Below, one piece after another: positions 5,782 to 25,187 of a DNA stretch of 39,092 nucleotides. The notes beneath the pieces are model-generated. The model was not told the DNA's origin, ran no database searches, and was given only the letters and a program-made list of their open reading frames with translations. Made by a program: the position numbers and the translations under genes. The stretch spans positions 1 through 39,092 of the forward strand of contig JAFGKK010000053.1 of the NCBI GenBank assembly GCA_016928575.1. Reading direction: 5' to 3'. The DNA is from Anaerolineales bacterium. GTDB lineage: Bacteria; Chloroflexota; Anaerolineae; Anaerolineales; RBG-16-64-43. Each line of letters starts with the position of its first letter. Position 1 is the stretch's first letter.

Positions 5782-7209
5782 ATGGACCGTATTCATAGAG
5801 GAATAATGCTTCTTGGATTGTCGCTCGCTCTGGCGTCCTGCGCGGCGGCGGAATCCGCCCCGGACGTGTCCCTTCCGGCGGCGGAGATGCCGACCGCAGG
5901 TGCGAATCCGAAACCGTCGGCGACGGCCGCCTTCAGCCCCACGGCGACCCAGACCCCCACGCCGGAGCCCACGCAATTCAGTTTCCAGGAACAGCTGACG
6001 GGACATCCCTCCCAGCTGAGTCTTTGGATCGAGGAGCTCGATCCGCACAGTGGGAAGGTTGTCGTCAATGGGGCCGACATGAACAGCCCGACCGCGCCGT
6101 TCACGGTGGATTGGGGCGATGGGGAAACGGCCGACGCCTGGTTTCCCTGTCAACACACGTATGCGGACACCGGAAAAAACTACCTCGTCGCGGTGACGGC
6201 CCATTACTCCCAAACAGACACCGGTGCCGCCGAACTGCTGGTGCGATTTGCGCCCCCCGTCATCGAGCCCATCCCGCTGCCCGAAAATCTCCGCGTAACC
6301 ATACCCGTCCAAAAGCCGAAGTTGACCAGCCGACTGTACGCCGTGCCGGGCGGACTGACCACCTTCACTGATGAATTTTTCGCCGGTGGATTGACCCCCC
6401 GCGAGGCTGTTGAGTACGTGCTCTCCCTCGCGGCCTACCTCCAGTACGATTTCGCCAACGAAAACGTATACACCGGCGAGGACGGCTTCCCCCAGGTGTT
6501 GTTGATGGATCCCTCTGCCCAAGGAATGTATTCGCTGTGGTTCACCGACCCCGTCAGTCTCGCCTCGGGGGAATACGGTCTGAGCGGGACTCTGCAATAC
6601 AGCTCGTTCTTCCACGAAATGGGCCATAATTTCACGCTCAACAGCCCGGCGGCGTATTACACCGGCGGCAAGATCGACGGCAACGCGAACGCGATCTACT
6701 CCGAGACCCTGGCCAATATTTTCGCCCACGCCACGGCGTACGAGTTGCTGCGCAAGGCCGGGGAGTTCGGCCTGGACGACGGACTGGCGGCGGAAATCCG
6801 GCAGTCTGCGCTTTCGTCCATGGCGGTGACGCGAAGTGGCTACGAGGATTACCTGGCCGCCGGGAAATCGTTCCATTCGTGGAACGATCCGGCCACTGCC
6901 GACGATGAAACCTTCGGCACGTTCATGACGATCGCGTACAAATTCTGTGAACGGGCGGAGGCGGATGGGAGCGGATACCGCGAACCGGTGAAACGGATGA
7001 TGGTGTTGCTGCAGAAGTTCAACCCGGATTGGCACGCGCGGTATTCCGCAGGCGCCAATTCGCCCGCCGCCGAGGCTTTCCGGGCGACGTGGATGGTGGC
7101 CGCCCTTTCGTACGCCTTTTCCGCGGACCTGCGGGATGAGTTCCGGGCATTGCAGTTTCCGATCGACGATGCGGCATTTGAAGAACTGCTGAATGCGGCA
7201 TCCGGGTGA
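5782..7209 (+). CDS. Lipoprotein with PKD-like domain and HEMGH metallopeptidase motif
   Basis: A 475-residue protein. The signal peptide ends in lipobox LASC (Cys20), followed by a Pro/Thr-rich linker (about 40-66) that would lift the protein off the membrane. Residues about 86-156 look like a PKD-type beta domain (TVDWGDGETADAW, HTYADTGKNY). HEMGH at 278-282 is a zinc HExxH motif, and Glu308 in YSETLANIFAHA is a plausible third ligand, as in gluzincin-like peptidases. I do not recognise a named family; the substrate is unknown. The ATG follows AGGAGG. It sits between a decayed WD40 gene and a second copy of the rplL tail, possibly as cargo of that segment. Confidence 0.85.
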   Translation: MDRIHRGIMLLGLSLALASCAAAESAPDVSLPAAEMPTAGANPKPSATAAFSPTATQTPTPEPTQFSFQEQLTGHPSQLSLWIEELDPHSGKVVVNGADMNSPTAPFTVDWGDGETADAWFPCQHTYADTGKNYLVAVTAHYSQTDTGAAELLVRFAPPVIEPIPLPENLRVTIPVQKPKLTSRLYAVPGGLTTFTDEFFAGGLTPREAVEYVLSLAAYLQYDFANENVYTGEDGFPQVLLMDPSAQGMYSLWFTDPVSLASGEYGLSGTLQYSSFFHEMGHNFTLNSPAAYYTGGKIDGNANAIYSETLANIFAHATAYELLRKAGEFGLDDGLAAEIRQSALSSMAVTRSGYEDYLAAGKSFHSWNDPATADDETFGTFMTIAYKFCERAEADGSGYREPVKRMMVLLQKFNPDWHARYSAGANSPAAEAFRATWMVAALSYAFSADLRDEFRALQFPIDDAAFEELLNAASG

Positions 7210-22366: not shown

Positions 22367-23227
22367 TCACGGCGCCGCCCATCCTTGTGAGGAATCCGTT
22401 TTTGGGTGACGCCTGGCAGCCTTTCGGTCGTCATCCCGGCGCGTTTCAAGCCGGGATCCGGTAGTTCCGGGACAGAGTGCCCGAGGAAAACGCCCGGGCA
22501 CGGCGGTTTGGAGTATGCCCGTCACCGGGGAAGTCATCCACCGGAGATCGCTTTCACGCCGGCGCGTATTCCGCTCCGGACCGTCCGGTCCTCCGCGGAT
22601 CAGCCGGATCCCAAACAGGACGAACCACAGCGGGTACACCGCGGCTCCCCCGGCCGAGGCGAACAGGTTCTGCGGCTCGAAACCCGTAGCCGAGGCGATC
22701 ACGGTCGCCCAGGCGCAGATCCCGGCCAGGACCCCGAACGCGGCGTGCCATGCGGGAAGCCGCCGTCCGAGCAGGGCCAGAAGGTTGACGAGGATCAGCC
22801 AAGTGCCGGGGCCGCCGAAGGAAAACCAACCGTCCGGATCGATCTGCGGAAGTCCGACGGCGAGGATTACTGCGCGGGTGGTTGCGTCGCCGGTTTGAAA
22901 GGCGGCCGAGAGGACGGGCGCGGCCCGGATGAGCGTGACCGCCCAGACGCCCTGCACCGTATAGCCGGCCAATCCGAGCAAGGTGGCGAACCGCGCCAAA
23001 TCCGGATGAACGCCCCTCACCATATCCTGCACCGCCGGAAGGATGTTGTTGGAAAGGACGGCGGTGACGGCAAACACGATCCACGGCAGGGAGGAGAGGA
23101 AAGCATTGTCGGCGAAGTTCCGGAAGAAGGAATACGCGTCGTCGCGTCCGGCTTCCGGCGAATTGAAGAAGTAGAGGATGATGACGACGTTGAGCAGGCC
23201 GATGGCGACGGCGGAGATGCCGCCCAA
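22367..23227 (-). CDS. Six-span membrane protein, N terminus interrupted by a stop codon
   Basis: The frame from a TTG at 23227 encodes 286 residues with about six hydrophobic spans (GISAVAIGLLNVVIILYFF, LPWIVFAVTAVLSNN, AVYPLWFVLFGIRLI and others). I do not recognise the family. A far better start is ATG 23266, preceded by AAGGAGC, but that reads MKTP then TAA at 23252-23254 before continuing in the same frame. Codon 5 therefore looks like a nonsense mutation. The last 60 or so residues are Arg-rich and run into a dispersed repeat (about 22425-22460), so the true C terminus was probably also displaced. Likely a recent pseudogene, or translated from the TTG. Confidence 0.6.
   Translation of the reverse strand: MGGISAVAIGLLNVVIILYFFNSPEAGRDDAYSFFRNFADNAFLSSLPWIVFAVTAVLSNNILPAVQDMVRGVHPDLARFATLLGLAGYTVQGVWAVTLIRAAPVLSAAFQTGDATTRAVILAVGLPQIDPDGWFSFGGPGTWLILVNLLALLGRRLPAWHAAFGVLAGICAWATVIASATGFEPQNLFASAGGAAVYPLWFVLFGIRLIRGGPDGPERNTRRRESDLRWMTSPVTGILQTAVPGRFPRALCPGTTGSRLETRRDDDRKAARRHPKTDSSQGWAAP
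22425..22465. repeat. Dispersed GGATCCCGGC...GCCGGGATGAC repeat
   Basis: GTCATCCCGGCGCGTTTCAAGCCGGGATCC is an inverted repeat close to the unit that forms the array at 30736-31330 (GGATGCCGGC...GCCGGCATGAC), in opposite orientation. It lies inside the 3' end of the membrane-protein frame. Confidence 0.6.
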
Positions 23228-23293
23228 CAGCGACCGGACGGCCGGTACTGCTTACGGGGTTTTCATGGCTGCTCCTTTTTCTTCTCGGCGGAG

Positions 23294-24475
23294 TTAAATC
23301 CGCTTCATGAAAACCGCGTCGACGATCGATTGCGGAAGGATCCCGAGGAGGTTCATCATTCCCGCCTGGGAATCGGCGAGGTATTTCCGCTTCGGTTTTT
23401 CGGCCTGCAGCGCGGCGTAGACGGTGCGGGCGACCCGTTCCGGCTCGGTCCGCCGGCGGTCGAACCGTTCGAACTGCTTTTGGAGTTTTTCCAGCGATTG
23501 AACGTACAAATCCGATTTTTCCCGCGGCCAAACCCGCAGGTCGCGTTCGAGCTCGGCCCGGGTGCGGGCCGGGGCCGCGGTGCGGATGCCGCCGCAGGCG
23601 ATGAGGATGTTGGCAATTCCCCAGGGCGAGAGTTCCAAGTGCAGGCTCTGGGCGATGCAGGTCATCGCGAATTCGCCGGCGTGGATGCTGGACACGTAGG
23701 GAACGGCGATCAGCCCGGGGGTGGCGATCCAGAGGATCCGTCCGCCGCGGGCGCGCCGCACCAGCGGCAGGAGGTGCTGCAGGAGGGCGACCGGTCCCAC
23801 CAACCGCGCCTCCAGTTCGGTCCGGAAGCGGGCGAGGTCCAACAGTTCCACCGGCGCGATGAATCCGCCGCCGGCGTTGTTGACAATCGCGTACAGCCTG
23901 TCGCGTCCTTTGCGCGCCAGGCTCTCCCGCACGGCGGCCGCGGCGGAGGCGATCTGATCCGGATCGCTCAGGTCGAGCGGGCAGAGGGGCTCCAGGCCCG
24001 CCAAGCGGAATGAGCGCAGGCGTTCGGCGTCGGTCTCCTTGCGGACCGCCGCCAACACGTGGAAACCGCGGGCGGCGAGATGGATCGCCGTCGCCAGGCC
24101 GATGCCCGAGGAACAGCCGGTGATCAGGACAGATTCGCCGGCGGGATGGGGATCGGAAGGGGTGGATGTGCTCTTCATAGTGGTTTCTCCGGATGCGTCC
24201 GGCCGGGCGGCGGCCCCCGCGCCGTGCGGTTCTGCACCCCCCGCCGGAAGGATGTCGACCGACCGCAGCGGAACGGCGAGATCCCGCAGGCGGTGAAGGA
24301 TTCCAAACAGGGCGGCTTGGTCGGGCAGCGGCCCGCGCAGAACCGTCGCCCCGTCCGACTCGTACCTTAGGGACATTCCGGGGAACCATTTGGCCGCCGG
24401 AGCGTAATCCAGCCAGGCGGCGATCCGGATTTCCGCCACGATCGTCGGCGGGGCGGGATCGGCGCGGTCAGTCAT
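23294..24475 (-). CDS. Fusion of a small N-terminal domain with a short-chain dehydrogenase-like domain
   Basis: One open frame of 393 residues. Residues 1-99 form a small domain (IRIAAWLDYAPAAKWFPGMS, VLRGPLPDQAALFGILHRLRDL) that resembles stand-alone bacterial hypothetical proteins. Residues 100-393 are an SDR fold with cofactor motif LITGCSSGIG and NNAGG. The catalytic SSx..YxxxK region reads LWIATPGLIAVPYVSS then IHAGEFA: Ser is Ala/Thr, Tyr is Ile, Lys is Glu. The protein should bind NAD(P) but not reduce by the usual mechanism. An internal ATG at 24178 has GGAG 8 bases upstream and could produce the 294-residue SDR part alone. The first ATG overlaps the plsC-like stop by 8 bases. Confidence 0.82.
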   Translation of the reverse strand: MTDRADPAPPTIVAEIRIAAWLDYAPAAKWFPGMSLRYESDGATVLRGPLPDQAALFGILHRLRDLAVPLRSVDILPAGGAEPHGAGAAARPDASGETTMKSTSTPSDPHPAGESVLITGCSSGIGLATAIHLAARGFHVLAAVRKETDAERLRSFRLAGLEPLCPLDLSDPDQIASAAAAVRESLARKGRDRLYAIVNNAGGGFIAPVELLDLARFRTELEARLVGPVALLQHLLPLVRRARGGRILWIATPGLIAVPYVSSIHAGEFAMTCIAQSLHLELSPWGIANILIACGGIRTAAPARTRAELERDLRVWPREKSDLYVQSLEKLQKQFERFDRRRTEPERVARTVYAALQAEKPKRKYLADSQAGMMNLLGILPQSIVDAVFMKRI

Positions 24476-25187
24476 AGATGAGGTCGCCCAGCACGGCCCG
24501 GATCCCGGCATTGGCCCGGAGCGGGCGGATCTCGGAGAAAATCCGCGCCCGGCTTTCCCGTTCCAGCCCGGCGATCGCGCACATGATCCGGTCGGCGGTC
24601 GATTCGACCAGCTCACGGTCCTCCACGCTTCCGCGGAAGCGGAGCGGCGCGCCGACGGTCAGGGCGTAGGGCCCGCGGAAATACCATGTTCCCACGGCTG
24701 GCTTGCCTTTGACATTGGATTCCAGCAGGCGGATCCGTTTGCGGTCCAGCGCCACGCCGATCGGCACCACCGGCGCGCCCGATTCGAGCGCCAGCCGCGC
24801 CGCGCCGGTGCGCGGCTTGTGCAGGCCGCCGTCGATCGGGCTGATGGCCCCTTCCGGATACAGCGCCACCGATTTGTTGTCGCGCAGGGTGCGCAAGGCC
24901 GCTCGGTAAGCCGCCCGGCCGTTCCCCGGCACCACCGGAATGTGCCCGGCCAGGCGCAGGTAGGATCCGAATACCGGCACCTGAAATAGGCGCTCCTCGA
25001 TCAGCAATCGGACCGGCTCGGGGGTGATTTCGAGGATCAGGAACGGATCGGTGGTGCTGGGATGGTTCGAGACGAGGATTTTCGGCCCGCCGGGCAGGGG
25101 CTGATGCCGGCGAATGTCGATGTCGAACATCAAGTTTTCATACAGGTCGACGGCCGGCAATCCCAACCGGAAGAATAAAGAATGCAT
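24468..25187 (-). CDS. 1-acyl-sn-glycerol-3-phosphate acyltransferase (PlsC family)
   Basis: A 239-residue acyltransferase. The catalytic NHx4D motif is NHPSTTD (Asn41-His42...Asp47), and the phosphate-binding motif is YPEGAIS. The family transfers acyl chains to lysophosphatidic acid at the inner membrane face. The length is normal. AAGGAG precedes ATG 25187. The next gene, the SDR fusion, begins within its last codons, so the pair is translationally coupled. That suggests a lipid-related role for the SDR-like protein. A divergent gene begins at 25419. Confidence 0.9.
   Translation of the reverse strand: MHSLFFRLGLPAVDLYENLMFDIDIRRHQPLPGGPKILVSNHPSTTDPFLILEITPEPVRLLIEERLFQVPVFGSYLRLAGHIPVVPGNGRAAYRAALRTLRDNKSVALYPEGAISPIDGGLHKPRTGAARLALESGAPVVPIGVALDRKRIRLLESNVKGKPAVGTWYFRGPYALTVGAPLRFRGSVEDRELVESTADRIMCAIAGLERESRARIFSEIRPLRANAGIRAVLGDLIYD

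Follow-up and report, generated by a model that had tools for sequence, protein, structure and literature searches.

We show that an SDR encoded in a stretch of DNA from an Anaerolineales bacterium (39,092 nucleotides, hereafter the window) carries replacements at all four positions of the catalytic Asn-Ser-Tyr-Lys (NSYK) tetrad, that these replacements are conserved across two phyla in a monophyletic group under purifying selection, and that the predicted fold of the protein is intact. SDRs form one of the largest superfamilies of enzymes, and their default annotation is oxidoreductase. A clade that has kept the cofactor motifs and swapped the tetrad, with the swap fixed across phyla, thus provides a clean natural test of an SDR without Tyr and Lys, and a caution for automatic annotation. 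The explanation that best joins the observations, and to which we give an even chance, is that the tetrad was replaced as a set in a small conserved subfamily which retained the Rossmann cofactor motifs and would serve as a non-reducing partner. Judged by its sequences, the group is a distinct rare branch of the SDR family that is probably doing something besides ordinary reduction. What is new here is an SDR subfamily that has lost the catalytic tetrad through a conserved swap of four residues, which is unusual; triad-less SDRs as such are already known, and a non-exhaustive literature search brought up no description of such a clade among bacterial SDRs.

The reading frame lies on the minus strand and comprises 393 codons, from an ATG at 24475 to a stop at 23294. 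Its SDR part (23294..24178, minus strand) encodes 294 amino acids plus the stop when counted from its own ATG, and this portion (P0005, the 294 C-terminal residues from ATG 24178) matches the Pfam family adh_short at 3.6e-24. The protein is an SDR of the classical, 17beta-HSD1-like type, and the motifs TGCSSGIG, NNAGG and IHAGEFA are found in it, in line with an earlier note on this DNA, which had described the Rossmann motif and NNAGG as kept. Among the eight members of the subfamily (the window protein and seven relatives from Anaerolineae and Clostridia), TGxxxGxG is present in seven, the eighth being frameshifted there, and NNAG in all. The other hallmarks of a classical SDR, namely the catalytic Ser, YxxxK and the tetrad Asn, are all absent from the window SDR. 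From the glycine motif, NNAG and R46 we infer that the protein binds NAD(P).

In classical SDRs, Tyr donates the proton and has its pKa lowered by Lys, which also binds the ribose of the nicotinamide; the substrate is polarised by Ser, and a water relay is anchored on Asn. In the window SDR, Asn is replaced by Arg125 (codon 23804..23806), Ser by Thr153 (followed by Pro154, codons 23717..23722), Tyr by Ile165 and Lys by Glu169, with Ile165-His166-Ala167-Gly168-Glu169 (codons 23672..23686, all on the minus strand) standing in place of YxxxK. These positions were confirmed by three sequence comparisons that agree with each other. IHAGEFA aligned by phmmer under YCASKFA of human 17beta-HSD1. In an alignment with 26 canonical SDRs, mostly from Chloroflexota, the R125 column holds the tetrad Asn in 25 of the 26, the T153 column Ser in all, the I165 column Tyr in 23 and Leu in 3, and the E169 column corresponds to the catalytic Lys. 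As an independent check, single-residue changes of the homologue P0003 were scored against Pfam adh_short, and the score of 73.5 bits rose to 81.6 with Ile to Tyr (+8.1), to 80.1 with Asp to Lys (+6.6) and to 78.8 with Arg to Asn (+5.3), which identifies the tested positions as the catalytic columns. The Ser column is less certain: a one-residue loop deletion brings the invariant Thr153 into it, and a gapless alignment brings in position 152, which varies (Ala, Val, Gln; Ala152 in the window). The reading of this position as Ala or Thr in the earlier note therefore covers both alignments, and a Ser to Thr change at 153 could be conservative. The exchanges of Tyr for Ile and Lys for Glu that it had reported fall on the canonical columns in the alignments and in the adh_short probes, and its statement that all catalytic residues are replaced can be extended to a fourth one, the tetrad Asn, which it had missed.

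The first homologue search yielded a protein of the genus-mate G001 (the same locus as L028) with 69-73% identity, together with L029 (a Clostridiaceae MAG) and L030 (Sporobacter termitidis) with 46-49% identity. A profile search of 298 genomes of the class added four more members (L088-L091), so that the seven relatives are 46-73% identical to the window protein. No further true members were detected in about 1,000 genomes close to the Clostridia members or in 400 genomes of the phylum; thus the family is rare and patchy. The subfamily signature is R ... TP ... IHAx[DE]FA. Arg125, Thr153-Pro154 and Ile, His and Ala of the IHAGE segment are invariant in 8/8 members, position 169 is Asp or Glu in 8/8, and position 168 is Cys or Tyr in the relatives and Gly in the window protein only, so that the conservation of IHAGE, raised in the earlier note as a check, takes the form IHAx[DE] in every member. 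Since only 58 of the 236 full columns are invariant across the eight members and the tetrad replacements are among these, their invariance is not due to chance; W150 and C195 are among further clade-fixed residues that are rare or absent in canonical SDRs.

The eight members form one clade outside the canonical SDRs (support 100/100) on a stem of 1.23 changes per column, or 1.18 in a four-member tree. The two Clostridia sequences stand apart from each other in the eight-member tree, with moderate support only, which hints at horizontal transfer of the family. Transposase-like ORFs lie directly upstream of the SDR homologue of G1699 (L094 1-2400), an arrangement that fits family mobility. The copies from viruses, phages and plasmids were just distant SDRs (23-34% identity), and a match in Chlorobiota (L033) was discarded as it covered 25 residues at a place with no SDR ORF. 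Three Chloroflexota SDRs (L038, L041, L039) have Tyr replaced by Leu (PLAATK, PLCASK) and keep Ser and Lys. They were considered as intermediates of the tetrad loss and rejected, because in the trees they share no branch with the clade and fall outside it; they thus look like a separate, independent loss of Tyr.

An ordinary active SDR that the earlier note had misaligned, with a normal triad elsewhere, has next to no probability. Such a reading could draw on Y161, four positions N-terminal to I165, where every member has either Tyr or Phe, but this position is Phe in Sporobacter, the adh_short probes confirm the columns, and the 110 residues that follow NNAG hold neither YxxxK nor YxxxxxxK in any of the eight members. 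The window protein is without a single Lys across this span, so that YxxxK cannot be restored by realignment. Homologues with a normal Ser-Tyr-Lys, or a triad recovered by realignment, had been named as what would refute the claim of a replaced active site; neither was found, and the true orthologues also are without the triad. It is also very improbable that the gene is an SDR copy in decay with a drifted active site, although two lesions would fit such a history: a TGA within the SDR of G001 where other members have Trp (L028 4853-4855; read as Trp solely for alignment and folding), and a frameshift in the SDR homologue of G1497 (L096 ~7063-7110, near the contig end). Both come from draft genomes and may be errors. 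Furthermore, dN/dS between the window SDR and that of G001 is 0.18 before the stop codon and 0.21 after it (N-terminal domain 0.25, PlsC 0.20), and constraint on both sides suggests that the stop arose recently or through misassembly. The same signature recurs in the eight members of two phyla, which are monophyletic. The conserved signature, the single clade and a dN/dS of about 0.2 together argue for a re-purposed active site, and decay is already largely refuted.

The AlphaFold2 model of the SDR, calculated from 30 aligned sequences, reached a pLDDT of 92.1 and a pTM of 0.90, whereas a model built on just 4 sequences was poor in the active-site region (pLDDT 41-50). In the model, helix 163-186 carries IHAGE and helix 115-141 carries R125; the structure prediction proposed in the earlier note thus gives an intact SDR fold with IHAGE within a helix. 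The best matches among solved structures were DHRS9 (Z 32.4) and 17beta-HSD1 (Z 30.7). With the NCBIfam models PRK06182, PRK05993 and KdsR-like, the SDR scores about 130 bits against cut-offs of about 300-390, below all of them. Kinship with the fungal DUF1776 family (PF08643) was suggested by a match of 2.9e-13 and by scores above the cut-off (25.3 bits for P0005, 50.3 for P0003, 34.3 for P0004) and was rejected: scores of up to 51 bits are reached by canonical SDRs from this branch too, which speaks against any special kinship, and residues at the tetrad positions hardly affect the DUF1776 score.

The frame upstream of the SDR encodes an N-terminal domain of about 70 residues (24215..24475 with part of the linker, minus strand) that has no Pfam, NCBIfam or PDB match. 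Many Anaerolineae carry it, for the most part in standalone short ORFs of about 90-120 residues. Its consensus is YEIRIxGHLDxxWxxWFxGL...GPVxDQAALHGLLxKVRDLGLPLxSV, it often occurs in several copies per genome (L070-L087), and in L070 and L076 its frame also continues into a membrane protein. The domain and the SDR occur together only in the genus of the window, and the domain was not found at the loci of the other six members. The in-frame fusion described in the earlier note is literally true, as no stop codon separates the two parts in the window or in G001, but a functional fusion is doubtful. A Shine-Dalgarno-like GGAG (24187..24190, minus strand) lies at -12 to -9 of the internal ATG at 24178, ahead of the Rossmann domain, so that an SDR made on its own is no less likely. 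G001 has GGAG and ATG at the same SDR start, and an SD-like sequence also precedes the starts in L029, L030 and L094. Moreover, the linker of about 20 residues is unconserved and differs in length between the window and G001, whereas the residues just after the SDR ATG are conserved. On these grounds, and given the standalone occurrence of the domain, we give even odds to the two parts being made as two proteins, or the SDR alone from ATG 24178, with no functional fusion. Against separate products stands the lack of a stop codon in either species despite linkers of unlike length: ribosomes coming from the N-terminal domain must read into the SDR, and some fusion product is made if this domain is translated.

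A gene for a PlsC-type acyltransferase (24468..25187, minus strand) lies directly upstream, and the ATG of the N-terminal domain overlaps its stop codon (ATGACTGA), PlsC ending at 24468. The protein matches PF01553 at 5e-21 with both family motifs intact, HX4D as NHPSTTD and EGxxS as YPEGAIS. PlsC and the SDR are probably co-transcribed where the two adjoin. The layout is the same in G001, with PlsC directly upstream, and in another family of the class (L095) a PlsC of 46% identity ends 11 nt before the SDR ATG, with no N-terminal domain at this locus. That two distant lineages of Anaerolineae both have PlsC directly upstream of the SDR speaks for a functional link in them. At L093 and L094 (Anaerolineae) and at L029 and L030 (Clostridia), PlsC does not adjoin the SDR, so that a partner role is not general; the contig of L096 ends just upstream of the SDR. 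The coupling to PlsC that the earlier note had proposed therefore stands for the window genus and the distant family and fails for the Clostridia members and the two other Anaerolineae loci: the link is recurrent, not universal, and limited to lineages. In the window, the SDR is followed by a gene for a DUF4386-like membrane protein (22367-23227, minus strand). This gene has a good SD and an ATG near 23266, yet TAA follows in frame as the fifth codon (window 23150-23269); unless translation starts at TTG 23227, the gene is broken.

Without Tyr and Lys, the ketone/alcohol reaction of classical SDRs is not expected. Our first choice, from what the sequences suggest, is a non-reducing NAD(P)-binding partner, and altered chemistry is its main rival. 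The Asn-Ser-Tyr-Lys tetrad would have been swapped as a set for Arg-Thr-Ile-[Asp/Glu]. Arg125 and Glu/Asp169, with opposite charges at sites of the Asn-water-Lys relay, are probably salt-bridged and hold the shape of the pocket, a guess from their position, and Ile165 probably fills the space of Tyr. The SDR most likely binds NAD(P)(H), as its motifs suggest, and/or a lipid-like ligand, and probably acts as a regulatory or scaffold subunit; the possible sensor or scaffold of the earlier note belongs to this one of the two readings. In some Anaerolineae this partner role would serve the adjacent PlsC, whose own active-site motifs are intact, and such a tie would suggest that Anaerolineae control phospholipid acylation through a cofactor or a ligand. 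A protein that is still an enzyme, with hydride transfer without a Tyr acid or a non-redox reaction through Thr153, His166, Arg125 and Asp/Glu169, is in our estimate less probable than not, with a substantial chance all the same. The polar replacements are invariant and not merely lost, as strictly kept as a catalytic site, and this keeps altered chemistry a strong rival. Further clade-specific residues (e.g. W150, C195) and the NAD(P) motifs are kept as well, and related TetR genes, usual neighbours of small-molecule enzymes, adjoin the SDR at the two Clostridia loci (L029 and L030). However, His166 sits in the helix one place away from that of the Tyr, so that its side chain may miss the nicotinamide; nothing points to a particular substrate or reaction, and invariance alone fits a ligand-binding site too. 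More tentatively, and less likely than not in our view, Arg-Thr-(Ile-His)-Asp/Glu might make up a novel active site built on the scaffold of a classical SDR, in a protein that binds NAD(P) and serves a non-classical reaction or the redox- or lipid-ligand gating of PlsC; it would have arisen once and then passed between Clostridia and Anaerolineae.

With the classical SDRs of the 17beta-HSD1 and DHRS9 type, the window SDR shares the fold (Z 31-32), TGxxxGIG, NNAG, the Arg after the second strand and the C-terminal region, at about 30% identity to 17beta-HSD1; it differs from them in having all four tetrad residues replaced. Halohydrin dehalogenases are SDR-derived and use Ser-Tyr-Arg (PMC4989007). 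The likeness lies in an SDR fold re-purposed after a change of the catalytic Lys, and otherwise the two are the reverse of each other: the dehalogenases kept Ser and Tyr and lost NAD(P) binding, whereas the window SDR has Thr-Ile-Glu and keeps the glycine motif. Biliverdin reductase B and the NmrA-type atypical SDRs lack the usual Tyr-Lys pair, and in biliverdin reductase B hydride is transferred without a Tyr acid. The window SDR resembles them as an NAD(P)-binding SDR fold without this pair, its binding being suggested by motifs, and, unlike them, is classical in all else. Biliverdin reductase B has been probed as an SDR-fold reductase at S111, H153 and T164 (PMC10461185).
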